From positions 23,157 through 47,225 of the IMG/VR virus record IMGVR_UViG_3300030202_003557: 24,069 bases of DNA. The stretch is one strand, 5' to 3'. This DNA is from a virus. Of the stretch, positions 13,631 through 23,931 are shown in pieces (positions within the stretch are counted from its first letter, which is position 1; every line of letters starts with the position of its first letter). A program made the position numbers and the translations under genes. A model generated the notes under the pieces. The model saw only the letters and a program-made list of their open reading frames with translations. It was not told the origin of the DNA and searched no databases.

Positions 13631-13660
13631 AATATACGAACGATATTTATACTCTCCAAA
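13631..13660 (-). promoter_or_regulatory. Early-type promoter for 13613 gene (Bacteroidota -33/-7)
   Basis: On the minus strand TTTG (13657-13660) and TATATT (13631-13636) are 20 nt apart, with GAGAG after TTTG and TTCG before TATATT. It is one of 12 copies and the leftmost. This copy also contains TATAAATA between the two boxes, which resembles a T4 late promoter and might allow dual control. Confidence 0.85.
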
Positions 13661-13666
13661 TTTATT

Positions 13667-14563
13667 TTAAATTACTCTTTTAAATATGGCTTGTTCCTTT
13701 AATTTAGCTTCAATAACAATATCGGGATTAAGTCCATAAGTATTAATCCTTTCATAAATCAAATCGGAGTGTGCTTGTGGTCGTATTGATTCATCAAGTT
13801 TCTCTTTTTGTCTACTTTCTGAGTAATGACAACATTGAGTAACATCTGAAGGCCATGTAGTAAAGGCTAATTTTAATGCTTCTTCCTCTGTGAGGCCGCC
13901 TGTATTAAATTTGTGGTGAAAATAATCGAATGTAATAGGAATTCCAATTCGTTTGTGGATTCCTTCATATAAATCCTTAACTGAGTATTCGTTTGGACTA
14001 TCATCGTTTTCAATCACTAAACGTTTTTTAGTATCTTCATTTAATAAGTGAAAGTTTTCACAAAAACGTTTTAATGTCTCCTCTTTATCACCATAAGCAC
14101 CACCTACATGAATATTAATTTTATTGTAAGTTGAAGGCTCATAACCCATCATATTAAATTGCTGACTGTGGAAATTTAATTCTCGAATTGTCTTTTCAAC
14201 TACCTTTTGAGTAGGTGAAGCTAGACAATTATAAGGGCCAGGATGCATTGTAAGACGTTGACCGCCTTCTTTAGCAATTTGCCCTACCTCAAACATTATT
14301 TCACAAATTTCTATCCCATCCTCTAATTCTTCTACTATATATTCATCTGACCATGGAAATATTTGAGATGATAACCTAAATAACTTAATACCCATCTCAT
14401 TATTCCACTTAACAATAGTTTTTAAATCCTTTACGTTAGCCAAAGCCAACTCTGAAACATAACTAATCCCTTTGTCATTAAATGTCTTTAACCGCATTGT
14501 ACGATTAGTCATAATTTTATTTGCACTGAGTGCTGTGTTTATACACGCATAACCTAATTCCAT
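13667..14563 (-). CDS. uvsE: UV-damage endonuclease (UVDE family)
   Basis: A 298-aa TIM-barrel endonuclease of full family length. Family blocks in order: LGYACINTAL (3-12), LFRLSSQIFPWSD (61-73), QRLTMHPGPYNCLASP (102-117), NIHVGGAYGDKE (150-161), RLVIENDD (181-188), ITFDYFHHKFN (210-220), HYSES (246-250) and IVIEAKLKE near the C-terminus. By comparison with the bacterial enzyme, His107, His152, Glu185, Asp213, His216, His247 and Glu285 are the metal ligands. UVDE nicks DNA 5' to UV photoproducts without a cofactor and would repair phage DNA in sunlit water. It follows a small membrane-protein gene by 17 nt and is read from the promoter at 14804-14833. Confidence 0.95.
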   Translation of the reverse strand: MELGYACINTALSANKIMTNRTMRLKTFNDKGISYVSELALANVKDLKTIVKWNNEMGIKLFRLSSQIFPWSDEYIVEELEDGIEICEIMFEVGQIAKEGGQRLTMHPGPYNCLASPTQKVVEKTIRELNFHSQQFNMMGYEPSTYNKINIHVGGAYGDKEETLKRFCENFHLLNEDTKKRLVIENDDSPNEYSVKDLYEGIHKRIGIPITFDYFHHKFNTGGLTEEEALKLAFTTWPSDVTQCCHYSESRQKEKLDESIRPQAHSDLIYERINTYGLNPDIVIEAKLKEQAIFKRVI

Positions 14564-14580
14564 AATGATCTTTTTTAATT

Positions 14581-14769
14581 TTATCTATTGTGATTAACGA
14601 AACTATTAATAAATGCTCCTAAAACATAAGGCCATAAAATAGCATTAATAATTCTCATTCCCCAATCAAATTTTATTTTATCTTCTGAATGTAAAACAAA
14701 TTCATTTAACATATCAAAGATAAAACTTAACGACATTCCAATTAACACATACGACAATAAATAATCCAT
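14581..14769 (-). CDS. Small two-helix membrane protein
   Basis: A 62-aa protein with two hydrophobic segments, residues about 3-20 (YLLSYVLIGMSLSFIFDM) and 38-55 (MRIINAILWPYVLGAFIN), joined by a charged loop. No family is recognised. It is the first gene of the promoter at 14804-14833 and precedes the UVDE gene. Small membrane proteins in early phage regions often alter host envelope or exclude other phages, but nothing here proves this. Confidence 0.75.
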   Translation of the reverse strand: MDYLLSYVLIGMSLSFIFDMLNEFVLHSEDKIKFDWGMRIINAILWPYVLGAFINSFVNHNR

Positions 14770-14803
14770 AATTTCTGTTTTTTATAATTTTTTAATATAC
14801 ACT

Positions 14804-14833
14804 AATATACGAACCGTTTTTTGCTTCTCCAAA
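14804..14833 (-). promoter_or_regulatory. Early-type promoter for 14769 gene and UVDE
   Basis: Minus-strand TTTG (14830-14833), 20-nt spacer beginning GAGAAG and ending TTCG, then TATATT (14804-14809). The ATG of the first gene lies 35 nt further on. Confidence 0.88.
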
Positions 14834-15070
14834 TATTTTCACGGAAGTCTTTAAAGTAGATTAAGTTAAGGAACCATTTTCAAAAGTAGGAACATCTACT
14901 TTAGTTTATACCTTATTTTATGTTCGGCAGGCTAATCTAAACCTGGGCGTCATCACGCTAAGTGGCTCATATGTCCATCACCCTTCTATCCACTATAATT
15001 AACTACATTATTTCTCATCATGTGTGGCACACTAGTCGTAGTCACTTCGACTCGTATTTTAATTTTTTAA
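14834..15070. ncRNA. Gene-free stretch with consecutive hairpins; candidate structured RNA or leader
   Basis: No open frame of note on either strand. Inverted repeats run one after another. TAAAGTAGA (14852-14860) pairs with TCTACTTTA (14895-14903), 9 bp perfect. A competing stem pairs AAAGTAG (14883-14889) with CTACTTT (14896-14902). Further stems are GCGT/ACGC (14947-14958), AGTGG/CCACT (14961-14994), GTGT/ACAC (15022-15032) and AGTCG/CGACT (15034-15052). The last is followed on the plus strand by a T-rich run. The first two stems are mutually exclusive, as in an attenuator. The direction of transcription cannot be decided from sequence. Confidence 0.4.
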
Positions 15071-15262
15071 TTAATCGCATAATTGAGCTTCTTCTATTTT
15101 ATTACATAAATAGACTATTCCATTTTTCTTTAAAACAGTATCGACAAAATAATATGCTTTCAAATCCCCCGCATTATAGTCCTCTATAAGTGAAGATTCC
15201 TTAATTGTTCTATTTAAAACATATCTTTCATCATTATATTCTAATATCTTAAATCTAGACAT
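15071..15262 (-). CDS. Small unknown protein
   Basis: A 63-aa protein starting MSRFKILEYNDERYVLNRTI. It looks like a short beta-alpha fold (YYFVDTVLKKNGIVYLC) with no recognised motif. It begins 1 nt after the T5orf172 gene ends and is the last gene of the run that starts at the promoter at 17571-17600. The structured gene-free stretch 14834-15070 follows it. Confidence 0.75.
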   Translation of the reverse strand: MSRFKILEYNDERYVLNRTIKESSLIEDYNAGDLKAYYFVDTVLKKNGIVYLCNKIEEAQLCD

Positions 15263-15263
15263 C

Positions 15264-15737
15264 TTAATTTCCTTTATATTTAGATCCTAATTCCTCAATG
15301 GTTTCTTTTACTAATTCAAAATCCACGTTAAAAAATTCTCTACCATTAGATAACCTATATTCTCCCAACGCTTTATGAACTTCCCTCTCTAGAAACTCAC
15401 CATCGTGGCATCTGAATACGTATTTCACCTTAAACGGATATATAACACCAGTACCCCGCGATAGCTGCTTAGCTCTATGTTCTGGGTGGTTTTTAGTATA
15501 ACCTATTTTATAAACGCCTTTTCCATACCCGTCATTTTCCAAAACATACACATAATAAGGACCATCTCCTTCATAACGATCTGTTCTTCTCTTAATGCTA
15601 GTATAGTAGGTAATGTTTTCCCAACCATCTTCGGTTGCATTTACAGTGTAATTACAATCTCTTAAATCATAACCTGCTCTTTTCTTAAATTCATCGTAAG
15701 GTAAAAAATACGATGCTTCTTCTTCTGTTATTCTCAT
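15264..15737 (-). CDS. T5orf172 / GIY-YIG superfamily protein
   Basis: A 157-aa protein. Residues 61-140 match the T5orf172 (MUG113-type) branch of the GIY-YIG nuclease fold: YYVYVLEND (61-69), GVYKIGYTKNHPEHRAKQL (74-92, giving Tyr76, Gly79 and Arg88), YVFRCHDGEFLEREVHKAL with Glu117 and His121, and NGREFFNV with Glu134. Residues 1-50 are a separate small region. Members are found in phages and in host DNA-modification loci, and many are presumed endonucleases. A homing or DNA-degrading role is possible. It overlaps the lipoprotein gene by 4 nt, so they are translationally coupled. Confidence 0.85.
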   Translation of the reverse strand: MRITEEEASYFLPYDEFKKRAGYDLRDCNYTVNATEDGWENITYYTSIKRRTDRYEGDGPYYVYVLENDGYGKGVYKIGYTKNHPEHRAKQLSRGTGVIYPFKVKYVFRCHDGEFLEREVHKALGEYRLSNGREFFNVDFELVKETIEELGSKYKGN

Positions 15738-16270
15738 TTAATCTTAATTTTAATTGTGTGAGGTGCTGTTTCATCTCCACCAAAATAAGGATATAGATAA
15801 TATCTTTTATAATCGTTAGGACAAGCCCTAGGAATTACTGTGCTTATATTATCTACACTCATAATATATTCATCTTCAAAAATATCTAAAGTACAGGTAT
15901 AGGATTTATTTATTTCGATATTAGCAATAACACCAAATGTAAATTCTCCTGCTTCATGCTTAAACCATAATATTTGTAAACTATCATTATAATATCTCCA
16001 CCCAAACCTCATTGAGTACTTCATGTGACTTTTTCCACAATCACTTACACCATATAACTTATTTACATCAGCTTGATTTGATGGGTTTTTAGTCCTATAA
16101 ATTGCACTTTCATCAAATATAACTTTAAATTCTATATAATTATCATAATTTGCTTTATATCGATAGCCAGACCTATGATTACCCTCCTTAATAGTAAATG
16201 TTCGATATCCATCATTATCAATTTTCTTACACCCTACAAGTGCCAAAAAGCAAAACATCCACTTCTTCAT
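15734..16270 (-). CDS. Phage-encoded lipoprotein, beta-jelly-roll-like
   Basis: A 178-aa protein with a short lipoprotein signal: MKKWMFCFLALVGC, lipobox LVGC with Cys14. The mature part is beta-rich, with IEFKVIFDESAIYRT, MRFGWRYYNDSLQILWF and, near the end, YLYPYFGGDETAPHTIKIKI. That last segment recalls secreted lipoproteins with a concanavalin/jelly-roll fold in Bacteroidota; I recall the pattern but cannot align it. It was probably acquired from a host. Anchored in the inner or outer membrane, it could mask a receptor or block superinfection. It overlaps both neighbours by 4 nt (16267-16270 and 15734-15737). Confidence 0.85.
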   Translation of the reverse strand: MKKWMFCFLALVGCKKIDNDGYRTFTIKEGNHRSGYRYKANYDNYIEFKVIFDESAIYRTKNPSNQADVNKLYGVSDCGKSHMKYSMRFGWRYYNDSLQILWFKHEAGEFTFGVIANIEINKSYTCTLDIFEDEYIMSVDNISTVIPRACPNDYKRYYLYPYFGGDETAPHTIKIKIK

Positions 16271-16500
16271 TTTTTCAAATCTTTATAAATGAAATAAGGC
16301 TGAAGTGCAATGCCAATAGTAAACCCATATAATGCAATATAACCCATTATAAGTGGATATAAAGGCATATCGTAATAATAATACTCATAATAGAGATTAT
16401 CTGTTAGTAAAACGCATTGAGTTACTCCAAGTAAAAATAAAAAGAATTTAATCTTACCATATTTGTGTTCTTCAAATAACCATTTTAAATAATCTATCAT
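16267..16500 (-). CDS. Small membrane protein with two transmembrane helices
   Basis: A 77-aa protein. Residues about 17-34 (IKFFLFLLGVTQCVLLTD) and 47-71 (YPLIMGYIALYGFTIGIALQPY) are hydrophobic, with a very Tyr-rich connector (LYYEYYYYDMP) between them and charged ends. Family unknown. The stop overlaps the lipoprotein start (ATGA), so the two are made together and may act at the envelope as a pair. The 78-nt gap before it has an ATATTTAT sequence but no TTTG/TATATT promoter. Confidence 0.78.
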   Translation of the reverse strand: MIDYLKWLFEEHKYGKIKFFLFLLGVTQCVLLTDNLYYEYYYYDMPLYPLIMGYIALYGFTIGIALQPYFIYKDLKK

Positions 16501-16578
16501 AATGTTTGTTTTAATATAAATATTAGTTAATGCTTGTTCACCTCACTACCCCTCAACCCTCTCCCATCCGTATATACG

Positions 16579-16926
16579 CTATTTCCATAAAACCTGTATA
16601 GATACTAATGTTATCGCTAGGGTTAGAGACACAAACGTTTTTAGGCTTATGCCTTCGTTAAAAAAGTAACTTATAAACAACGCATATATAATCATCCCAA
16701 CTCCAAATCCAACGAATCTTGTCGGCCACATCATTCCATCAAATCCCTGTACGGTGTATTTAGTACCCCAAATATATAGAAATGAAATAGGAATTCCTGC
16801 TATGGCTAACGCCCATTCGTGTTCGCGAAACCACTTCCACATGAATTGGCCATTTAGTTGAAAAAACGTTATTACGTGTGCTAGTAGGAAAAATATGATT
16901 CCTGTAATTAGTGGTTTAATGTTCAT
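16579..16926 (-). CDS. Four-helix membrane protein
   Basis: A 115-aa, strongly hydrophobic protein with four likely transmembrane segments: about residues 5-23 (PLITGIIFFLLAHVITFF), 38-55 (WALAIAGIPISFLYIWG), 70-88 (FVGFGVGMIIYALFISYF) and 95-112. Tryptophans flank the membrane (WKWFREHEW). I do not recognise a family; four helices in 115 residues fits small transporter- or holin-like proteins, without specific support. It overlaps the 50-aa gene upstream by 4 nt (ATGA). Confidence 0.8.
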   Translation of the reverse strand: MNIKPLITGIIFFLLAHVITFFQLNGQFMWKWFREHEWALAIAGIPISFLYIWGTKYTVQGFDGMMWPTRFVGFGVGMIIYALFISYFFNEGISLKTFVSLTLAITLVSIQVLWK

Positions 16927-17075
16927 TGGGTGTTGGGCTTTTTTTCTGTTTTTACTTCCATCATAGCATTGTGGTAGTATTCAGCGTATGCTGTCATTAC
17001 TACGTTTACGGACGACCCATTTGGGTATTTTTTTCGGTTTTTTACATTCCAATTGTGTGCGCTTAATATTTTCAT
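16923..17075 (-). CDS. Small 50-aa protein, unknown
   Basis: A short gene easily missed: ATG at 17073-17075, 50 codons and TGA at 16923-16925, overlapping the ATG of the next gene (ATGA). It starts MKILSAHNWNVKNRKKYPNG and continues with TAYAEYYHNAMMEVK. The leader GAAAAAAAAGCACA before the ATG is the A-rich type seen throughout. It is basic, Tyr/Asn-rich and has no known motif. The exact 4-nt overlap and the leader support it as a real gene. Confidence 0.75.
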   Translation of the reverse strand: MKILSAHNWNVKNRKKYPNGSSVNVVMTAYAEYYHNAMMEVKTEKKPNTQ

Positions 17076-17090
17076 TGTGCTTTTTTTTCT

Positions 17091-17177
17091 TTAATAGGCT
17101 CGATGCGAAAAATCGTACGACTCTTCTTTTCGATATCCTAATGTTTTATGTGCAAAACCCCTATATGGAATTCGCAT
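17091..17177 (-). CDS. Possible 28-aa peptide gene
   Basis: A weak candidate. An ATG at 17175-17177 opens 28 codons (MRIPYRGFAHKTLGYRKEES and 8 more) to TAA at 17091-17093, 15 nt before the next gene on the same strand. It is basic and aromatic, with no motif. The leader (ACAAATATA) is AT-rich but lacks the A-run plus CCAA element. It could equally be a chance frame in the untranslated stretch after the GC-rich island. Confidence 0.25.
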   Translation of the reverse strand: MRIPYRGFAHKTLGYRKEESYDFSHRAY

Positions 17178-17240
17178 TATATTTGTATATACATCGATGG
17201 TGGAAAGGTACGGTCGTTGTTCGAGTTACCACAAATTTTT

Positions 17241-17340
17241 ACATACGGCCCCGCCACATCGACATCCCGCGGCTATGGCGCGGGCCTAACATTAGCGTCC
17301 CACTAGCACACCACTACCGGTGCGCTAGCGTCCTAACATC
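17241..17340. ncRNA. GC-rich island with strong hairpins; candidate noncoding RNA
   Basis: About 100 nt visibly richer in G and C than anything around it. Stem A: CTAGCACACC (17303-17312) with GGTGCGCTAG (17319-17328), 10 pairs with one wobble and a 6-nt loop. Stem B: CCCGCG (17266-17271) with CGCGGG (17279-17284), 7-nt loop; an alternative stem pairs GGCCC (17247-17251) with GGGCC (17282-17286). Two 8-mers occur twice: CCTAACAT (17285, 17332) and TAGCGTCC (17293, 17326). No convincing frame crosses it. GC-rich structured islands in AT-rich genomes usually mark RNAs. If on the minus strand, it lies 13 nt after the 58-aa gene. Confidence 0.5.
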
Positions 17341-17353
17341 CTACTTTTCTATT

Positions 17354-17530
17354 TTACTCCCAAACTTTAAACGTCTCTACACGTATAATATTACCCATAT
17401 TTACTCCATCTTCTTTAACTGCTCTTAATAAACGTTGGGGTGAACTATATGATTTTCTGAAATTCATTACTCTACCACCCACGTTAATTACTGCTTTGAA
17501 CTTTGTTTTTAATTGGCTTTCTTTCCTCAT
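17354..17530 (-). CDS. Small 58-aa protein, unknown
   Basis: A short gene: ATG at 17528-17530, 58 codons, TAA at 17354-17356. It is preceded directly by AAAAAAACCAACA, the leader shared by early genes here, and 41 nt upstream is the -7 box of a full promoter. The protein is basic (MRKESQLKTKFKAVINVGGR at the start) with a likely beta-beta-helix arrangement (RVMNFRKSY, then SPQRLLRAVKEDG) and ends VETFKVWE. Function unknown. The leader and promoter make it one of the better-supported small genes. Confidence 0.85.
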   Translation of the reverse strand: MRKESQLKTKFKAVINVGGRVMNFRKSYSSPQRLLRAVKEDGVNMGNIIRVETFKVWE

Positions 17531-17570
17531 TGTTGGTTTTTTTAAATGTTTTACTTAATTATCTGACATG

Positions 17571-17600
17571 AATATACGAAATGTATTTTGGTTCTCCAAA
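17571..17600 (-). promoter_or_regulatory. Early-type promoter for 17530 gene and the downstream run
   Basis: Minus-strand TTTG (17597-17600), 20-nt spacer GAGAACC to TTCG, then TATATTCATG (box TATATT 17571-17576). No other copy occurs until 14833, so it may also serve the genes from 17075 down to 15071. Confidence 0.9.
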
Positions 17601-17612
17601 TTCCATATATTC

Positions 17613-17787
17613 CACCCCACCAATGGTGGGGTGAATTTATTTAGTTGCCACTGTAATGGAGTCAAACCATACTCACCAACCTCCTACAGTTGGTTATTCA
17701 CTGTCTCCCGTTGTTGTAGTTTTAGGTAAACTACTCAAGTGATACAGGGCTTTCGCTCGGGTTAGGGGCTCCGTTTCTGAAGCCCCT
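17613..17787. ncRNA. Gene-free cluster of hairpins; candidate structured RNA
   Basis: No credible gene. Five inverted repeats follow one another: CACCCCACC/GGTGGGGTG (17613-17633, 9 bp perfect, 3-nt loop), ACCAAC/GTTGGT (17675-17694), GTAGTTT/AAACTAC (17716-17734, 7 bp, 5-nt loop), a short GC/GC hairpin with TTTC loop (GAAA on the other strand) at 17747-17758, and AGGGGCT/AGCCCCT (17764-17787). Between the first two, ATGG-7 nt-CCAT on the minus strand looks like a tRNA T-arm, but no full tRNA can be drawn. It separates the 17813-18142 gene from the promoter at 17571-17600. The first stem may also terminate transcription. Confidence 0.5.
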
Positions 17788-17812
17788 TACTATTACAATA
17801 TGTTATTTTATA

Positions 17813-18142
17813 TTATTTCAAATCTACATCTTTAAACTTAATTACATAATCAACTACATTCCCTATTAAGGTAGTTGTTTGAAACTTCAATTTAGAAGGG
17901 TAAGTATTTGTTAAACTTCCTACCTCCTTAGTATCTTTATATAAAACACTTGAAATTAATTCAAATTCTCCTTCCAATCCATTCACTGTAAAGGTAGTTC
18001 CTGTTAATAAATCATTTACAAAATTCTCTTGATCAATTGCTTCCTGACTCTTTGGTCTCCCTGGATTAAACATCCTTCTATCAATTTGGTTTTCTTTAAC
18101 TTCTACTTTAACTGCTTTTACTTCTTTTACTTCTTTAATCAT
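17813..18142 (-). CDS. Small early protein, unknown function
   Basis: A 109-aa protein. The N-terminus is a Lys/Val/Glu repeat (IKEVKEVKAVKVEVKE) followed by FNPGRPKSQEAIDQENFVND, where GRPKS is weakly AT-hook-like. The rest is beta-rich (TFTVNGLEGEFELISSVLY, LKFQTTTLIGNVVDYVIKF). No family is recognised. The leader AAAAACCAAGTAAA precedes the ATG, and the promoter box at 18189-18194 is 47 nt upstream, so it is a single-gene early unit. Confidence 0.82.
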   Translation of the reverse strand: MIKEVKEVKAVKVEVKENQIDRRMFNPGRPKSQEAIDQENFVNDLLTGTTFTVNGLEGEFELISSVLYKDTKEVGSLTNTYPSKLKFQTTTLIGNVVDYVIKFKDVDLK

Positions 18143-18188
18143 TTTACTTGGTTTTTAGTTATTAATTATTAATTTTTATTATGACATG

Positions 18189-18218
18189 AATATACGAACG
18201 GGTCTTTGCTTCTCCAAA
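18189..18218 (-). promoter_or_regulatory. Early-type promoter for 18142 gene
   Basis: Minus-strand TTTG (18215-18218), 20-nt spacer starting GAGAAG and ending TTCG, then TATATTCATG (box TATATT 18189-18194). Confidence 0.9.
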
Positions 18219-18233
18219 TTCCCAACACTTGAG

Positions 18234-18476
18234 TTACTTAATTGTGATAAATGGAGGAAAATCTTTAATTACTTCCATACTAACAACATGATCATCATTT
18301 GTATTAATATTGAAACAAGCTGGACCACCTAATTTGTGATTCCACTTCCACTCACCCTTATCAAGGTTAAATAGGTTTAACATAAATCTACCATCACCTA
18401 AATCTGTATTCATAGTTCCGAATTGCTCCATTCCATTCCTATATGTAACTTTGTATTTCTTTACTTCCTTCTTCAT
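18234..18476 (-). CDS. Small early protein, unknown function
   Basis: An 80-aa protein that reads as a compact beta-sheet domain: VKKYKVTYRNGMEQFGTM, DGRFMLNLFNLDKGEWKW, ACFNINTNDDHVVSMEVI and a short tail. No family is recognised. The leader is AAAAAAGACCAAAAG before the ATG, and the promoter box at 18514-18519 lies 38 nt upstream. Its stop is 16 nt from the -33 box of the next promoter, leaving no room for another gene. Confidence 0.82.
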   Translation of the reverse strand: MKKEVKKYKVTYRNGMEQFGTMNTDLGDGRFMLNLFNLDKGEWKWNHKLGGPACFNINTNDDHVVSMEVIKDFPPFITIK

Positions 18477-18513
18477 AATGTTAACTTTTGGTCTTTTTTA
18501 ATTATCTGACATG

Positions 18514-18543
18514 AATATACAAACAAAAGACCAATTCACCAAA
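18514..18543 (-). promoter_or_regulatory. Early-type promoter for 18476 gene (variant)
   Basis: Minus-strand TTTG (18540-18543), 20 nt, TATATTCATG (18514-18519). It differs from the rest in having GTGAA after TTTG and TTTG instead of TTCG before the -7 box. Its -33 box lies inside the outer arm of the palindrome at 18535-18684. Confidence 0.8.
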
Positions 18544-18684
18544 GTCCTCACCATACAGCCGTCAACAAAGTCCTCGCCCAATCGTTGATTTTACCGATAG
18601 CCCGTCACGGGTAACGTTAAAAACAACGACCAAACGAGGACGTTAGTAACATTATTGTCAACGAAAAACGAGGATGTTGGTGGA
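18535..18684. repeat. Large nested imperfect palindrome (long hairpin)
   Basis: The inner hairpin spans 18564-18644. From outside in: AAC/GTT, a 3-nt bulge, GTCCTCG (18570-18576) with CGAGGAC (18635-18641), a 5x5 internal loop (CCCAA/CCAAA), TCGTTG (18582-18587) with CAACGA (18624-18629), an A-A mismatch, TTTTA/TAAAA, a mismatch, CG/CG, a mismatch, TA/TA, a one-base bulge, CCCG/CGGG and a 3-nt TCA loop. That is about 29 pairs. An outer stem pairs 18535-18549 (ending AAAGTCCTC) with 18670-18684 (starting GAGGATGTTGG). No gene is present. It could be a structured RNA, a cruciform regulating the promoter at 18514-18543, or a replication element. Confidence 0.7.
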
Positions 18685-18707
18685 AAAGTTAGGCTCGTCG
18701 TAAGGAA

Positions 18708-18750
18708 GTTGGGGGTGTGTGTATTTATTCGTTGTCCAACACACCCCAAC
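18708..18750. repeat. GT-rich hairpin
   Basis: GTTGGGGGTGTGT (18708-18720) pairs with ACACACCCCAAC (18739-18750): 12 base pairs with one bulged G and an 18-nt loop. It lies in the gene-free stretch, 24 nt from the large palindrome. It might terminate transcription or form part of the same RNA; there is no T-run on either side. Confidence 0.6.
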
Positions 18751-18770
18751 CCCCACTACCAACCAAGTAA

Positions 18771-18892
18771 CCCACATACTCTACGTAATTCTTCGCTCAA
18801 TAGTACCAATGTATTATACATTAGATACCTAATATTTTTAGTTTTCCACATACGCTGCTTAATTCATTGCTTAAGCTATCGCTTAATTCGCT
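18771..18892. repeat. Imperfect 30-bp duplication and 12-bp tandem triplet
   Basis: CCACATACTCTACGTAATTC (from 18771) recurs in altered form as CCACATACGCTGCTTAATTC (from 18846), with similarity running on for about 10 nt more. The second copy leads into three 12-nt units: GCTTAATTCATT (18857), GCTTAAGCTATC (18869) and GCTTAATTCGCT (18881). No convincing coding frame passes through. It may be the remains of a degraded gene, or iterated protein-binding sites. Confidence 0.55.
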
Positions 18893-18911
18893 ACACCATC
18901 AACAACAACAC

Positions 18912-19016
18912 TTAACAACGTTTTTCTGTTATTAATACTACCGTCCACACCGTTAACAGTAATGTCAGTAATAGTGTTAGTAGTAGTCTGTATGTTAGTG
19001 GTAACGTCGTTCCCAC
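18912..19016 (-). CDS. Possible 34-aa hydrophobic peptide (no ATG)
   Basis: A weak candidate. A GTG at 19014-19016 opens 34 codons to TAA at 18912-18914. The product has a short polar start (MGTTLPLTYR), about 20 very hydrophobic residues (LLLTLLLTLLLTVWTVVLI) and a charged end (TEKRC), the layout of a one-helix membrane peptide. Upstream, AAAAAAAGCCAACACA resembles the A-run/CCAAC leader but leads to an in-frame ACG (19023-19025) where ATG would be expected. It may be a gene with a lost or unusual start, or only a low-complexity CTA/ACA repeat. Confidence 0.22.
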   Translation of the reverse strand: MGTTLPLTYRLLLTLLLTLLLTVWTVVLITEKRC

Positions 19017-19044
19017 CGTAGTCGTTGTGTTGGCTTTTTTTATT

Positions 19045-19275
19045 TTAGAATAATAATTTTCTCATTACCTTGATTTCTTCACTATCAATGTTCTCGGGTA
19101 AATTCAAATCAGGACAATCTATTTTTAATAGTTTAAATGCTACATTAAAGGCAAAATCAAACTCATTTTTACGTTTTAAATCTAATCCTTGTTTACTAGC
19201 AACATCATCAATGTACTCTCTTATATAACCACCTTCATTGGTGTCTAAGAAATGTATTTTACTCTTCCCAATCAT
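19045..19275 (-). CDS. Small early protein, unknown function
   Basis: A 76-aa protein starting MIGKSKIHFLDTNEGGYIRE. Mostly helical with mixed charge (DVASKQGLDLKRKNEFDFAF, FKLLKIDCPDLNLPENID), with no recognised motif. It is a single-gene unit: promoter box at 19300-19305 is 25 nt upstream of the ATG; the leader ends AAAATTAAAAGTT without the CCAAC element. Confidence 0.78.
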   Translation of the reverse strand: MIGKSKIHFLDTNEGGYIREYIDDVASKQGLDLKRKNEFDFAFNVAFKLLKIDCPDLNLPENIDSEEIKVMRKLLF

Positions 19276-19299
19276 AACTTTTAATTTTTAATATACTTG

Positions 19300-19329
19300 A
19301 ATATACGAATGATTTTCCAGTTTACCAAA
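19300..19329 (-). promoter_or_regulatory. Early-type promoter for 19275 gene
   Basis: Minus-strand TTTG (19326-19329), 20-nt spacer beginning GTAAAC and ending TTCG, then TATATTCAAG (box TATATT 19300-19305). It begins just beyond the stop of the 19333-19551 gene. Confidence 0.88.
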
Positions 19330-19332
19330 TTC

Positions 19333-19551
19333 CTAATAATTTATTAAATCTTTTAAACTTTTAAACATTTCTAATAATTCATCAACTGAATAGTTTTCCA
19401 CTGTATCCTCAGAAACATTTTCTATCATATTCTCAAATAAATCTTGAACATCAACTTCAACAACAGTACCATTATCTAATACTAAGTCTGTTGTGTAAAC
19501 ATCTCTATTGTCAGTTTCTACTATGTTGACTCTTTTTCTTATTCCCTCCAT
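19333..19551 (-). CDS. Small acidic protein, unknown function
   Basis: A 72-aa acidic protein: MEGIRKRVNIVETDNRDVYT, a beta pair (DLVLDNGTVVEVDVQDLFEN) and an acidic helix (DELLEMFKSLKDLINY). No family is recognised. It follows the 19564-20046 gene by 12 nt and has no promoter of its own, so it is the second gene of that unit. Acidic small early proteins in phages often bind or mimic nucleic-acid partners, but there is no specific evidence here. Confidence 0.78.
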   Translation of the reverse strand: MEGIRKRVNIVETDNRDVYTTDLVLDNGTVVEVDVQDLFENMIENVSEDTVENYSVDELLEMFKSLKDLINY

Positions 19552-19563
19552 AATATTATTTTT

Positions 19564-20046
19564 TTATACTCCACTAACTAATTTTTTATTCCAAGCACCT
19601 GATATTAATTCTCCCTCTACTAACAATACTACACCATTAGCTGAATCCTTATCTGGATATGAGTTGTTGTTAAGTATGTTTAATTCTTTAAAGTACATAT
19701 CTAAATTATCATTCCTATGTTTGTCAAAGTTTTTCCAATCACTGTCAACTAAATCTTCAATACCAAATTTTTCTATAAAACAATCTTCACCCCAAAAACC
19801 TTCAATAGCTTCCTTCACATATTCTCCTTTACTATCAAAAGACATACTGTTAACTCCTTCATCATTCCAATATATCATTTGAAAATTTCCTTCATCAATG
19901 TCAACAATGTATTCAGGTTCCCAAGTATCATCATCCTCTTCATAGTCAGATAATATTTGGCTTAATTTTTCTTCATTTGTTAAATAAAGTGTTTCATAAT
20001 CGAAGTGACTATTAATATATGCTTTGGTGTTTTTAGCTTTCTTCAT
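19564..20046 (-). CDS. Acidic early protein, unknown function
   Basis: A 160-aa, strongly acidic protein with many Asp/Glu clusters (SDYEEDDDTWEPEYIVDIDE, about residues 33-52; GIEDLVDSDWKNFDKHRND). The first 10 residues are basic. The C-terminus (NGVVLLVEGELISGAWNKKL) is a beta-like segment. No catalytic motif is seen. The leader is AAAAAAACCAACT directly before the ATG, and the promoter box at 20092-20097 is 46 nt upstream. The acidity is compatible with a DNA-mimic or inhibitor protein, which remains speculation. Confidence 0.82.
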   Translation of the reverse strand: MKKAKNTKAYINSHFDYETLYLTNEEKLSQILSDYEEDDDTWEPEYIVDIDEGNFQMIYWNDEGVNSMSFDSKGEYVKEAIEGFWGEDCFIEKFGIEDLVDSDWKNFDKHRNDNLDMYFKELNILNNNSYPDKDSANGVVLLVEGELISGAWNKKLVSGV

Positions 20047-20091
20047 AGTTGGTTTTTTTAATGGATTTCTGTTAACTTTTTATTATGATAT

Positions 20092-20121
20092 AATATACGA
20101 ACTAGAATTGTGTTTTCCAAA
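20092..20121 (-). promoter_or_regulatory. Early-type promoter for 20046 gene
   Basis: Minus-strand TTTG (20118-20121), 20-nt spacer beginning GAAAAC and ending TTCG, then TATATTATATC (box TATATT 20092-20097). It begins 3 nt after the stop of the 51-aa gene. Confidence 0.88.
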
Positions 20122-20124
20122 TTC

Positions 20125-20280
20125 CTAAAATACCATAAAATCTATTAACTCCTCTCCTATACCATTTCCATTTTTAGTAATTTCATAGTTTGGATCCATT
20201 CCTGACCCCATACAGTGTTCTACTAAATCATCAATTGATTCAAATTCTTTTTTAAAATAACTACAATTTAAACTATACAT
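20125..20280 (-). CDS. Small 51-aa protein, unknown
   Basis: A short gene: ATG at 20278-20280, TAG at 20125-20127, 51 codons. It starts MYSLNCSYFKKEFESIDDLV and contains EHCMGSGMDPNYEI, then GNGIGEELIDFMVF. Its start overlaps the last 8 nt of the 20273-20497 gene (AATGTATAG contains both ATG and TAG), so it is translationally coupled, with its own A-run (AAATAAAAAAAA) upstream. Its stop lies 3 nt from the next promoter. Function unknown. Confidence 0.8.
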   Translation of the reverse strand: MYSLNCSYFKKEFESIDDLVEHCMGSGMDPNYEITKNGNGIGEELIDFMVF

Positions 20281-20497
20281 TTTTTTTATTTTTATTTGGC
20301 ATTTCTGCTATTCCTTTATCCATTACTTCTGAAATTTCTTCTGTTGAAACTCCACCTTTAGTTATGGGAGCATCTAATAAGATCTTTGCTATCCCCATAG
20401 CTATTCCAAAATCTCCCTCTTTAAGGGCTGATTCTATAAACATAAGCTTATTTTCTTTTGGTAAGCTTAGCAACCAATTTGTTTCTTCTACAGTCAT
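20273..20497 (-). CDS. Small helical protein, unknown function
   Basis: A 74-aa protein, mainly helical: TVEETNWLLSLPKENKLMFI, then EGDFGIAMGIAKILLDAPIT and a Lys/Asn-rich tail. The paired helices resemble a short helical-hairpin repeat, but no family can be named. It is the first gene of the promoter at 20522-20551 and is coupled to the 51-aa gene downstream. Confidence 0.8.
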   Translation of the reverse strand: MTVEETNWLLSLPKENKLMFIESALKEGDFGIAMGIAKILLDAPITKGGVSTEEISEVMDKGIAEMPNKNKKNV

Positions 20498-20521
20498 CTG
20501 ATTAATTTTTTATTATGATAT

Positions 20522-20551
20522 AATATACGAACTAGAAAACTGTTTTCCAAA
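20522..20551 (-). promoter_or_regulatory. Early-type promoter for 20497 gene
   Basis: Minus-strand TTTG (20548-20551), 20-nt spacer beginning GAAAACAG and ending TTCG, then TATATTATATC (box TATATT 20522-20527). The downstream leader is nearly identical to that of the promoter at 20092-20121 for about 15 nt, suggesting duplication. Confidence 0.88.
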
Positions 20552-20566
20552 ATCTACGTTTTAAAA

Positions 20567-20872
20567 CTAACTCCAACTATCAAATATATTGTCGGATGCT
20601 TCATCATATTTACCTTCATCTATCAACTTTTCCGTTTCAAGTTGTTTTTTAAGCCCCATTCCTATGGTCTTTTTTTTAATTTGGTACATATTAACTTCAT
20701 GATACTTGTAGATAGCTCTGTATCTTGGTCCTTCTAACCCAAAGCTTCCTCCTATCATATGATGAATGATTCCTTCAGTTACATTGTTAGTAATTTTACA
20801 TTTGTAGTAGACTGTATCTCCGCTTTGAATGATATTACCTTCACAATCTTCTATTTTGTCAAGTTCTCTCAT
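20567..20872 (-). CDS. Small early protein, possible SH3-like beta domain
   Basis: A 101-aa protein. Residues 8-60 read as a small beta barrel (DCEGNIIQSGDTVYYKCKIT, then EGIIHHMIGGSFGLEG, then RYRAIYKYHEVNMYQI), like SH3-type domains with a GDxVxY start. A helical tail follows (LKKQLETEKLIDEGKYDEAS). The exact family is not recognised. It begins 1 nt after the 20874-21221 gene and shares its promoter. Confidence 0.8.
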   Translation of the reverse strand: MRELDKIEDCEGNIIQSGDTVYYKCKITNNVTEGIIHHMIGGSFGLEGPRYRAIYKYHEVNMYQIKKKTIGMGLKKQLETEKLIDEGKYDEASDNIFDSWS

Positions 20873-20873
20873 T

Positions 20874-21221
20874 TTAATAATCTTTTCTATCTACTTTTGA
20901 AAACATTCGTTTTACTTCATTGACAGTTTCAGTCTCTATAATACCTTCAATCTTTTCATCTATCAATTTATCAACATCGATTCCTAGTTCTAGCATTTGC
21001 TCTTTAAACTTATTATATCCACTATATCCTCCTTCAACAAGCATTCCTAAAAACTTTACATCTACTATATCTGTAAAATCAATGTCTACTCCTACTCCTA
21101 GATCTTTACTTTCATAAGCTATTAATAAATGTGTAACTGTTGCTTCAATAGCATCGTTGTTTCCTACTTTAATTGTGTTTTCTACATTAACTAATAATGA
21201 TTTACTTGTAATTTTTGTCAT
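20874..21221 (-). CDS. Small early protein, unknown function
   Basis: A 115-aa protein starting MTKITSKSLLVNVENTIKVG, with an Ile/Val/Asp-rich middle (DLGVGVDIDFTDIVDVKFLG) and a helical C-terminus (DKLIDEKIEGIIETETVNEV). No motif is recognised. The leader AAAAAAACCAACCAAA precedes the ATG and the promoter box at 21258-21263 is 37 nt upstream; the 20567-20872 gene follows in the same unit. Confidence 0.82.
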   Translation of the reverse strand: MTKITSKSLLVNVENTIKVGNNDAIEATVTHLLIAYESKDLGVGVDIDFTDIVDVKFLGMLVEGGYSGYNKFKEQMLELGIDVDKLIDEKIEGIIETETVNEVKRMFSKVDRKDY

Positions 21222-21257
21222 TTTGGTTGGTTTTTTTATTAATTTTTATTATGATAT

Positions 21258-21287
21258 AATATACGAATGAATTTTGTGTTCTCCAAA
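21258..21287 (-). promoter_or_regulatory. Early-type promoter for 21221 gene
   Basis: Minus-strand TTTG (21284-21287), 20-nt spacer beginning GAGAAC and ending TTCG, then TATATTATATC (box TATATT 21258-21263). Confidence 0.9.
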
Positions 21288-21307
21288 ATCTACGTTTGGT
21301 AGTTGAT

Positions 21308-21646
21308 TTATTTACTATCTTCTTCCTTGAAAAATTGTTCGATTTTTCCTACTAAATTTCTTGCTATTTTCTCTTTACCAGACTTTTCAACACCTCTAGT
21401 AATTAAAATTGTTATTAAATTCTTTAACTTTAAAGTACAAGGGCTACCATATTGATTACTACTAGCATTTTCTTCAAATATTTCTTCTAAATCACATTTA
21501 AAAAATTTAATATCATTAACAGTATAACCTCTAAAGTGGTTTTTTTTATCCACTATTTTGTCAGTTATTTCCTGTGATAAATTATCAACTTGTCTTTTAA
21601 ATTCTGTATTTACTCTAACTTGTATTATTTCGCTTGCTTCACTCAT
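21308..21646 (-). CDS. Small early protein, possible divergent ribbon-helix-helix
   Basis: A 112-aa protein. The start, ASEIIQVRVNTEFKRQVDNL, has the strand-then-helix pattern of ribbon-helix-helix DNA-binding proteins (xIxVRVxxEF..xVdxL). An insertion (residues about 35-65) separates it from a second helical part (LKLKNLITILITRGVEKSG) and a Lys/Glu-rich end. The match is weak, so DNA binding is only suggested. The leader AAAAAACCA sits directly before the ATG; the promoter box at 21690-21695 is 44 nt upstream. Confidence 0.8.
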   Translation of the reverse strand: MSEASEIIQVRVNTEFKRQVDNLSQEITDKIVDKKNHFRGYTVNDIKFFKCDLEEIFEENASSNQYGSPCTLKLKNLITILITRGVEKSGKEKIARNLVGKIEQFFKEEDSK

Positions 21647-21786
21647 TGGTTTTTTACTTTTTTAATTATTATTAATTTTCTTATACGTGAATGTATGAAT
21701 AATTCTCCAGTTCTCCAAATTCCAGATATACTTCGTTGATTTTTTGAAAAACCTGCTCTAAATTTTCTTCTTCTTTCTATTTCCAT
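21643..21786 (-). CDS. Possible 47-aa basic peptide overlapping a promoter
   Basis: A weak candidate. ATG at 21784-21786 lies 4 nt after the stop of the 21791-22306 gene; 47 codons run to TGA at 21643-21645, overlapping the next ATG (ATGA). The product is very basic (MEIERRRKFRAGFSKNQRSI at the start). The promoter at 21690-21719 lies inside this frame, so the second half is constrained by promoter sequence and would be an unusual protein. The exact spacing at both ends is the only support. Confidence 0.3.
   Translation of the reverse strand: MEIERRRKFRAGFSKNQRSISGIWRTGELFIHSRIRKLIIIKKVKNQ
21690..21719 (-). promoter_or_regulatory. Early-type promoter for 21646 gene (variant -7)
   Basis: Minus-strand TTTG (21716-21719), 20-nt spacer beginning GAGAAC, then TACATTCACG (box 21690-21695). 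It is the only copy with TACATT instead of TATATT and with TTCA instead of TTCG before it; probably weaker. Confidence 0.8.
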
Positions 21787-21790
21787 ATCT

Positions 21791-22306
21791 TTATACTATT
21801 TTAAATGCAGATTCAACTGGTCTTCTATATCCTGTAAATCTCATATCATTATTATCTATTAATATTCCATCCTTAATTACTAAAGCATGCTTATGAACAA
21901 GTATTAAATATGTTCCTTTACTAAATTTATTTAAGAATGTTTTAACAGTAAATGCTACTTTCTTATGAGTATATTTAGTGTTATATAATTTACCTCCACT
22001 TTTTGGACTACTTCCTACATACTTAATTGTTCTAGTAGTTGATTTTGGAAATAAACTTAATTGACCCACTTTATTTTCATCTTCTAAAGTAACTTCTTTT
22101 AATGATTTAAGTGTTCCTTTGGTACCTTTAGTACCCTTTTTATCTTTTCTATTGAATGTGGCTTTTACAAAAGCGTGAGCTGTATTATAAGTTACTTCAA
22201 AGGCATTCGATACTGCTCTTACTACACAGTCATTCTTTTCTGCTTTTGCTATTTCACTTCCTTTACTTACTTCATATCCACTTTTAAATACTTTTTGGTC
22301 TAACAT
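21791..22306 (-). CDS. Papain-like-fold (cysteine peptidase-like) early protein
   Basis: A 171-aa protein. AEKNDCVVRAVSNAFEVTYN (22-41) places Cys27 at the start of a helix, and residues 131-152 (GTYLILVHKHALVIKDGILID) give His140 and Asp151/Asn152 on strands. This Cys/His/Asp(Asn) order and spacing match small papain-like phage proteins with a DCVVRA start. Residues 50-75 are a Lys/Gly/Thr-rich insertion (KKGTKGTKGT). If active it could cut a host protein or peptide bond, or remove a conjugate, early in infection; the substrate is unknown. The leader is AAAAAAAACAACCAAATT and the promoter box at 22343-22348 is 37 nt upstream. Confidence 0.78.
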   Translation of the reverse strand: MLDQKVFKSGYEVSKGSEIAKAEKNDCVVRAVSNAFEVTYNTAHAFVKATFNRKDKKGTKGTKGTLKSLKEVTLEDENKVGQLSLFPKSTTRTIKYVGSSPKSGGKLYNTKYTHKKVAFTVKTFLNKFSKGTYLILVHKHALVIKDGILIDNNDMRFTGYRRPVESAFKIV

Positions 22307-22342
22307 AATTTGGTTGTTTTTTTTAATTTTTTAATATACCTG

Positions 22343-22372
22343 AATATACGAAAGAATTCTATAATCTCCAAA
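22343..22372 (-). promoter_or_regulatory. Early-type promoter for 22306 gene
   Basis: Minus-strand TTTG (22369-22372), 20-nt spacer beginning GAGATT and ending TTCG, then TATATTCAGG (box TATATT 22343-22348). Confidence 0.9.
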
Positions 22373-22397
22373 TTCCAAACCAATTTAGCTAGCTCTT

Positions 22398-23186
22398 TTA
22401 TACAAGCTCATTACCGGGGGCTCCAATGTACGTTGAAGGTGTTACTTCATAATCTATAATTGGCTCACTTGTATAAAGAAAAGGTCTTATTTTATTATAT
22501 TCCCTCCAAGCAAATTCACTTAAGTAATCTACTCTTTCCTCAGTAGGTTCTAACATACCTCGCTCTAATATCATTTCAAATACACCTTCTAGAAAAAAGT
22601 TATCAAAGTCAATTAAGCTTGTATAAAAGCTTCCACTACTGTTTTTAGGTAATTGATTATCTAAGCCATCTCTTAAATAACTTACCCACCCATTTCCATA
22701 GAATGGAATTACTTTACTAACTGAATAATCTGAAGCTATTCCTATTAAGTTTAAAACGAAATCAACATCTGATATTTCACTATTTTCCCACATAGTATAG
22801 TTATTGTGAGTCTTAACAATACAGTTTATAAGTTCTTTAATTTCGTGTTTTTGGCTTTCTAGTTCTTCAAATTTATCTTCTTTTACTAAAGAATCAGGGT
22901 GAAAATTTCCAAGAACCATATCTTCCTGATCTGGAATATAATAAAAAAACTTTGCTCGTTTTCCTTTTACATTTGCTTCTACTCTTTTAATAATACCTTT
23001 GGTTAAGCCTCTCCTTAACATATCAGCATATTTCTTATTTGAATGTCCACTACGATTTCTATCATATCCAAATGCTGCTGTTGTAAGCTCATTTTCTGAT
23101 AAAAATGGTTTGCTTCTTAAAGCATCTATCATGCTTTCTACTGAATTTTGTGTACTTCTAGATAATGGGTCTATATAACTTCTCAT
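22398..23186 (-). CDS. Winged-helix-like early protein
   Basis: A 262-aa protein. Residues about 15-88 look like a winged helix: SVESMIDALRSKPFLSENEL, then YADMLRRGLTKGIIKRVEAN as the second and recognition helices, and GKRAKFFYYIP as the wing. Residues about 100-262 are helical and aromatic with no known motif (IGIASDYSVSKVIPFYGNGW; FDNFFLEGVFEMILERGMLE). A DNA-binding regulator of phage or host genes is plausible. The leader AAAAAACCAATTAAA precedes the ATG. It overlaps the 23183-23410 gene by 4 nt (ATGA), in the unit read from 23902-23931. Confidence 0.8.
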   Translation of the reverse strand: MRSYIDPLSRSTQNSVESMIDALRSKPFLSENELTTAAFGYDRNRSGHSNKKYADMLRRGLTKGIIKRVEANVKGKRAKFFYYIPDQEDMVLGNFHPDSLVKEDKFEELESQKHEIKELINCIVKTHNNYTMWENSEISDVDFVLNLIGIASDYSVSKVIPFYGNGWVSYLRDGLDNQLPKNSSGSFYTSLIDFDNFFLEGVFEMILERGMLEPTEERVDYLSEFAWREYNKIRPFLYTSEPIIDYEVTPSTYIGAPGNELV

Positions 23187-23410
23187 TTTAATTGGTTTTT
23201 TATGTTTTTAATATTTTGTTTTGCTTTTTCTATTATTTCTTTATCTTCTTCAGTAGTTCTAGCATCAACAACGTATTCTTCTACCTTGTTGTCTAAAGCC
23301 TCAAAAGCAGCCCTAGCATCTGATAGTGCTTTGGCTGTAGTTAAACCTGGGTTAGCATCGAATGCTAACTCAGCTTCTTTAAATCGTTTTTCTAATTCTA
23401 CTCTTCCCAA
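23183..23410 (-). CDS. Small coiled-coil protein, TTG start
   Basis: A 75-aa helical, Glu/Lys/Ala-rich protein (VELEKRFKEAELAFDANPGL, SDARAAFEALDNKVEEYVVD). There is no ATG in frame; the TTG at 23408-23410 is used. It is supported by AAAAAACCAGAAGA just before it, which matches the A-run plus CCA leader of the other early genes, and by an in-frame stop slightly upstream. It overlaps the 23398-23661 gene by 13 nt and the winged-helix gene by 4 nt. Function unknown. Confidence 0.75.
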   Translation of the reverse strand: MGRVELEKRFKEAELAFDANPGLTTAKALSDARAAFEALDNKVEEYVVDARTTEEDKEIIEKAKQNIKNIKNQLK

Positions 23411-23661
23411 TCTTCTGGTTTTTTAAGAATAGTAGGTGGCTCGTAAACACCTCTACTATTTCTGATTTTATGTTCTGTTCTTTTAATTTCAAATGAATCC
23501 CCTTGAATCATAATTTTACCTCCTTGTTGAAGCATTTTTCTAAAACGTTTTTCTTCATTTTCTGAAAAATCTTTAGATATTTCTATCATTTCTTCTTTGG
23601 AAATTATTTCTCCTTCAAGATAAATTGTAACTTCTTTTCTAATTGATTGTTTACTTAGCAT
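23398..23661 (-). CDS. Small early protein, unknown function
   Basis: An 87-aa protein beginning MLSKQSIRKEVTIYLEGEII, with a charged helical middle (SKEEMIEISKDFSENEEKRF) and a beta-like end (GGKIMIQGDSFEIKRTEHKI, VYEPPTILKKPEDWEE). No motif is recognised. It starts 3 nt after the stop of the 23665-23871 gene and overlaps the next gene by 13 nt, so the four genes from 23871 to 22398 form one compact operon. Confidence 0.8.
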   Translation of the reverse strand: MLSKQSIRKEVTIYLEGEIISKEEMIEISKDFSENEEKRFRKMLQQGGKIMIQGDSFEIKRTEHKIRNSRGVYEPPTILKKPEDWEE

Positions 23662-23664
23662 TAT

Positions 23665-23871
23665 TTAATTTTTAAACATTCTACTTTTCATACAAACTCT
23701 AACTAAATGTAAAAACTCTTTTTGTTTTTCTAGTTTGTTATATTCTCCAGTATATGTAAATTCTTCTTCTCTATCTTCCAAATAAGCCTCTTCAATAATC
23801 AAATCAAATGCATTTAATTTATTTAGTTTACAGATATACTTTTCTTTTTCTAATTCTCTTTCGTATCCCAT
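23665..23871 (-). CDS. Small helical early protein
   Basis: A 68-aa charged, helical protein: MGYERELEKEKYICKLNKLN, then FDLIIEEAYLEDREEEFTYT and LEKQKEFLHLVRVCMKSRMF. No motif is recognised. It is the first gene after the promoter at 23902-23931; the leader AAAAAAAACCAAC runs straight into the ATG. Confidence 0.8.
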   Translation of the reverse strand: MGYERELEKEKYICKLNKLNAFDLIIEEAYLEDREEEFTYTGEYNKLEKQKEFLHLVRVCMKSRMFKN

Positions 23872-23901
23872 GTTGGTTTTTTTTATTTTTTAATATACCT
23901 G

Positions 23902-23931
23902 AATATACGAAGGGAATATCAATTCTCCAAA
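23902..23931 (-). promoter_or_regulatory. Early-type promoter for 23871 operon
   Basis: Minus-strand TTTG (23928-23931), 20-nt spacer beginning GAGAAT and ending TTCG, then TATATTCAGG (box TATATT 23902-23907). The -33 box lies within the last codons of the partial gene at the right edge. Confidence 0.9.

Follow-up and report, generated by a model that had tools for sequence, protein, structure and literature searches.

A large nested hairpin in the gap between two small phage genes is best read as structured RNA, and it possibly forms the structured 3' end, or a processing element, of an early minus strand transcript, which is the reading we tentatively prefer. The hairpin lies in the window analyzed here, the last 24,069 bases of an IMG/VR virus record with a total of 47,225 bases, in which all convincing genes are on the minus strand. 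Protein family matches in the window included a phage baseplate wedge, a primase, a tail family, and a UV-damage endonuclease family. Among phage records, the gene at 22398-23186 matched nothing but Flavobacterium phages immuto. The closest contig found (L003, protein identity up to 97%) encodes type 9 secretion system (T9SS) sorting domains of type A (TIGR04183) and type B (TIGR04131) at L003:2-757 and L003:3293-3865, where the window has the UV-damage endonuclease. We read these as phage-borne proteins addressed to the type 9 secretion system of the host. Together, the immuto matches, the T9SS domains in L003, and the Bacteroidota-type promoters described below suggest that the source is probably a myovirus-like phage of a marine Bacteroidota host. 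The variable block that contains the hairpin also includes a minus strand gene (15264-15737) with a T5orf172/MUG113 (GIY-YIG-like nuclease) domain and homologues in 15 related loci.

The initial annotation had described an 81-nt hairpin enclosed by a second stem, and both formed when the sequence was folded. The minimum free energy of the inner hairpin was -29.8 kcal/mol as plus strand RNA and -38.2 kcal/mol as minus strand RNA (z of -5.6 and -6.3, respectively), and none of 2,000 dinucleotide shuffles was equally stable on either strand. Among 4,716 windows of 81 nt taken from both strands of the 47-kb record, three folded at least as well as the minus strand form, which ranks third, and seven folded at least as well as the plus strand form. 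Chance is excluded as the origin of the fold, and the rank of the minus strand form, together with the shuffling result, supports assignment to an RNA end. With the enclosing stem included, the whole 150 nt gave a z of -5.5 on the plus strand. The 3-nt apical loop was present as described, while the reported count of about 29 pairs in seven helices was not reproduced, as the plus strand structure contained 25 pairs in five helices and the minus strand structure contained 31 pairs. A symmetric 5x5 internal loop, also part of that description, is a feature of the plus strand only. All five of its positions are A/C mismatches there, hence G-U pairs on the minus strand, where they are consecutive and the helix runs for 18 bp uninterrupted. 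The earlier view that coding does not explain the region held: the gap has no credible coding, its upstream neighbor ends at 19045, and its downstream neighbor starts at 18476. An assembly artefact is unlikely, as the arms are diverged and not exact inverted copies.

Table 1 Features of the hairpin region and related elements. Positions are those of the window unless a related locus (L number) is given.
Feature	Position	Strand	Description
Inner hairpin	18564-18644	-	18-bp helix (middle consists of five consecutive G-U pairs), then 5, 2, and 6 bp; 3-nt apical loop
Whole nested hairpin	18535-18684	-	Outer stem pairs 18535-18549 with 18670-18684; -59.5 kcal/mol, z -5.8
Direct-repeat family D6	18536-18552 (copy 1); 18562-18578 (copy 2)		Copy 1 in outer arm, holds promoter -33 region; copy 2 in inner arm; 17 nt, 88% identity
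Direct-repeat family D7	18632-18647 (copy 1); 18666-18681 (copy 2)		Copy 1 in inner arm; copy 2 in outer arm; 16 nt, 88% identity
Promoter of gene 18234-18476	18512-18543	-	-33 box TTTGG at 18543-18539, N16, TTGTATATTCA; same motif in relatives
Small gene driven by hairpin-adjacent promoter	18234-18476	-	80 aa, no family match above threshold
Non-coding island C	18477-19044	-	568 nt; the nested hairpin lies close to the 3' end
Second, G-rich hairpin of island C	18700-18756	-	GGGGGUUGGGGUGUGU / ACACACACCCCCAACUUCC; -32.3 kcal/mol for 18691-18775
Small gene directly upstream of island C	19045-19275	-	76 aa, no family match
Nearest upstream promoter	19290-19329	-	Predicted start near 19290; would transcribe gene 19045-19275, then island C
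Structured island A	17076-17353	-	278 nt, z -3.9; GC-rich 13-bp hairpin; follows gene 17354-17530
Structured island B	17531-17812	-	z -5.5; follows gene 17813-18142; ends in CACCCCACCATTGGTGGGGTG hairpin directly before promoter 17600
Members of the conserved ~150-nt element	L004:6958-7107, L017:6563-6712, L048:6709-6858, L033:5358-5507, L026:738-887		
Further members of the ~150-nt element	L042:322-471, L027:137-286, L132:3493-3642, L127:11931-12080, L135:1266-1415		

The coding strand folded better than its complement. Across the 150 nt, the minus strand fold contained 58 pairs (47 Watson-Crick and 11 G-U) versus 42 on the plus strand (39 and 3), and the whole 568-nt gap had a z of -5.0 on the minus strand and -3.4 on the plus strand. 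This difference supports an RNA end on the minus strand. RNA rich in G and U usually folds better than its complement, and with composition controlled the preference is modest, as the z values of the 150 nt alone were nearly equal (-5.8 versus -5.5). Furthermore, pairing in the outer stem is more extensive as plus strand RNA, with two wobble pairs that favor that strand. Both the modest preference and the better pairing of the outer stem on the plus strand were counted against the RNA-end assignment. The minus strand is preferred since it is both the coding strand and the one with the better fold, the asymmetry alone not being decisive.

The promoter proposed next to the hairpin proved real and is one of 12 near-identical minus strand promoters. 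In a scan of the window with a profile built from these 12 sites themselves, they scored 36 to 53, while the next best minus strand position scored -6 and the best plus strand position 7.5. The consensus consists of GGAATTTGGAGAA, a variable stretch (N), and TTCGTATATT, and the motif is also found in many relatives. The promoters span 13660-23931 at approximately one per small gene or gene pair, and twelve such clean sites provide a concrete candidate transcription map. Several contain a TTTGG...CAAA-like dyad. In some relatives, a palindromic TTTACNGGGTAAA closes the -7 region and looks like an operator. The Bacteroidota sigma-A promoter has a -7 box of TAnnTTTG (PMC9723704), with a TTTG box at -33 about 19 nt away. 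The hairpin-adjacent promoter resembles it in having TTTGG at -33, followed by 19 nt and TATATTCA at -7, in which the TA and TT agree. It differs in that its -7 box ends in CA rather than TG, and it belongs to the extended phage-specific consensus GGAATTTGGAGAA-N-TTCGTATATT.

Most promoters of this block closely follow the preceding gene. Between a stop codon and the -33 box after it, seven of the 11 gaps that could be measured had 3-25 nt and another had 71 nt. The remaining three were 501 nt in island C, 212 nt in island B (17601-17812), and 237 nt at 14834-15070, a minus strand non-coding gap that was not significantly structured (z of -0.67). A gap of 501 nt, where 3-71 nt is usual, supports the RNA-end assignment, but it also exceeds what a processing hairpin needs, which was counted against it. 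Islands B and C share a layout in which a strong hairpin lies directly before a promoter, and the promoters that follow them have the most stable RNA directly upstream among 136 promoter-like sites from the window and relatives. No homologues of island B were found except for its promoter. Island A is not followed by a promoter of the 12-site type. Several promoters in relatives are preceded instead by apparent ordinary terminator hairpins with T-runs, as read by eye. The repeated layout in island B and the terminator-like hairpins at this position in relatives are further grounds for placing an RNA end here.

No minus strand promoter was found inside island C in the profile scan, the nearest being that of the upstream gene, which suggests that the island is served by this promoter. 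The transcript would start at promoter 19329, carry the gene at 19045-19275, and read across island C as far as the hairpin, which immediately precedes promoter 18543 of the next unit. The long, nearly uninterrupted helix could then either be cut by a double-strand-specific RNase of the RNase III type or block 3' exonucleases, which would give a defined end to the upstream message or to a stable RNA fragment. In this way the structured 3' region would keep the two transcription units apart as RNAs. Should the hairpin indeed process or protect early messages, it would represent RNA-level separation of dense transcription units without ordinary terminators, in a group, the phages of marine Bacteroidota, where the RNA level has been little studied.

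Island C, or about 250-500 nt of it, could alternatively be a free-standing structured non-coding RNA, such as a regulator, a scaffold, or, more speculatively, a decoy of a host defense or RNase, with the hairpin as its 3' domain. We consider this doubtful. The proposal of a new phage non-coding RNA in the initial annotation stands in part: structured RNA is the best reading given the coding-strand fold, the long non-coding 3' region, and the failure of coding or a terminator to explain the site, while a free RNA is possible at most, with no homologue found. The non-coding stretch is long and has at least two strong hairpins, two more structured islands (A and B) lie nearby, and related phages have other structured intergenic regions in the corresponding neighborhood that are neither tRNAs nor Rfam families. 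Against a free RNA, the island lacks a minus strand promoter of its own, it has neither a homologue nor an Rfam match, and outside the hairpin its local folds are weakly better than chance (z of about -2). A candidate internal promoter near 18850 (TGTGG...TATCTAATG) was rejected, as it was absent from the profile scan. A free RNA here would add a new phage non-coding RNA.

Both arms of the hairpin are duplicated, as had been proposed from direct repeats in the sequence. The repeats were confirmed at the positions given, except that AACGAGGACGTT begins at 18633 and not at 18634. The -33 box TTTGG does fall inside the enclosing stem, in its outer 3' arm on the minus strand. This arm, GAGGACTTTGGTGA, is the -33 region of promoter 18543; a diverged version of it forms the inner 3' arm, GAGGACTTTGTTGA. 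The nested arms thus look like duplications of the upstream edge of the promoter, and this resemblance keeps a purely mutational origin as a candidate. In this case, template switching in the course of replication would have copied the -33 region in both direct and inverted orientation, leaving a non-functional quasi-palindrome with the hairpin as a by-product, which we regard as unlikely. The fact that the hairpin is found in no relative, and that the small genes nearby have no homologues there, is consistent with fast turnover of this kind. The arms have diverged, yet the inner helix is continuous on the coding strand through its five G-U pairs, which fits retained pairing. Five random transitions would all fall on the G-U side about 1 time in 32, by our own estimate and not as the result of a tool. 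Island B also has an unrelated strong hairpin in the corresponding position, which argues against a by-product. The pairing may have been retained by selection. That no homologue was found in relatives, and hence no covariation, counts against the RNA-end assignment.

The search for such homologues covered about 1.35 Mb of retrieved loci and 30 whole relative records, in which none was found, and blastn against phage records gave no match. No syntenic relatives were found via the neighboring genes 18234, 19564, and 21791, and loci found through genes 13667, 22398, and 11268 either had no hairpin or did not extend to its position. When the island was compared with 116 loci by nhmmer and blastn, the promoter was the sole match; likewise, a DNA search of 32 whole records gave short fragments only, of which the better matches fell on the promoter. 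A covariance model derived from the single hairpin sequence, with the window as its sole positive control, was run over 82 sources (1.17 Mb) plus 30 whole records and found only itself. Viral and genome collections contained 22 chance matches to exact 17-mers from the hairpin, none with the fold. The small genes around the hairpin are also without homologues in relatives, which suggests that the whole region is fast-evolving. A 615-nt structured gap in L003 was apparent only, as the stretch proved to encode a protein that begins with GTG.

A scan of the gaps in related loci identified a non-coding element of about 150 nt that is conserved across at least ten distinct phage sequences (Table 1), mostly adjoining homologues of gene 21791. 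Its pattern is ACCCACG...GCCGCCGTCCATCG.GCGTG.ATATGCG...CATCGATTGTATATAC, unrelated in sequence to the hairpin at 18564-18644. The sequence is strongly conserved; the consensus fold is weak, with little covariation, and the members scanned had no match in Rfam. The element might act as RNA, perhaps including a pseudoknot, or as DNA, for example as an origin. tRNAs explain the largest cluster of structured gaps in relatives; such an explanation does not hold for the cluster beside the gene 21791 homologues. A model of the element built without island A matched island A at an E value of 0.21, with CCATCGATGTATATACAAATATA as the common stretch, so a diverged copy may be present in island A.

A broader proposal is that islands A, B, and C represent a set of unrelated, fast-evolving structured non-coding RNAs, this nested hairpin among them, which these Bacteroidota phages place between small early genes and which act in trans on RNases or defenses of the host; we rate this as rather improbable. 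Least probable of all is a DNA-level element, either promoter control through a cruciform or a dyad bound by protein or part of an origin, as the -33 box inside the outer stem and the dyads in several promoters might suggest, given that such an upstream hairpin is missing from nine or ten of the 11 other promoters, that the helix is better as RNA on one strand through G-U pairs, which add little in DNA, and that iterons were looked for next to the hairpin and none were seen.

With respect to known RNA classes, no match to Rfam 15, including ROOL and GOLLD, was found in the window at the gathering threshold. At a relaxed threshold the best match was Thr_leader, with 25.7 bits (gathering threshold of 55), and it lay outside the hairpin. 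Phage ROOL and GOLLD RNAs are larger, and tRNA genes often lie nearby (PMC12286853). Island C would be similar to them as a long structured phage non-coding RNA, and it differs in size, at about 500 nt versus 659-800+ nt (PMC12286853). Unlike them, it has no Rfam match and only one strongly significant domain, and no tRNA was found in the window.

Intrinsic terminators before phage promoters offer a second comparison. The hairpin is a G+C-rich stem-loop and sits, as they do, between a stop codon and the next promoter. In contrast to them, it has a far longer helix and a nested second stem, and no U-run follows the stem on the transcribed strand; no terminator-like site was found on the minus strand in 16900-19400. 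An intrinsic terminator was rejected on the missing U-run, which was also counted against the RNA-end assignment.

The early mRNA of T7-type phages carries intercistronic hairpins that are processed by RNase III. Here almost every unit has its own promoter, the phage is a Bacteroidota myovirus, and cleavage would be hypothetical, in all of which the present case differs from the T7 type. The likeness is a long irregular hairpin between small, co-directional genes that are probably early, judging from their promoters and the small-gene content of the block. The hairpin is intercistronic within this block, as RNase III sites are, and against the helix of about 20 bp or more expected of such a site it provides 18 bp without interruption and 31 pairs in total.
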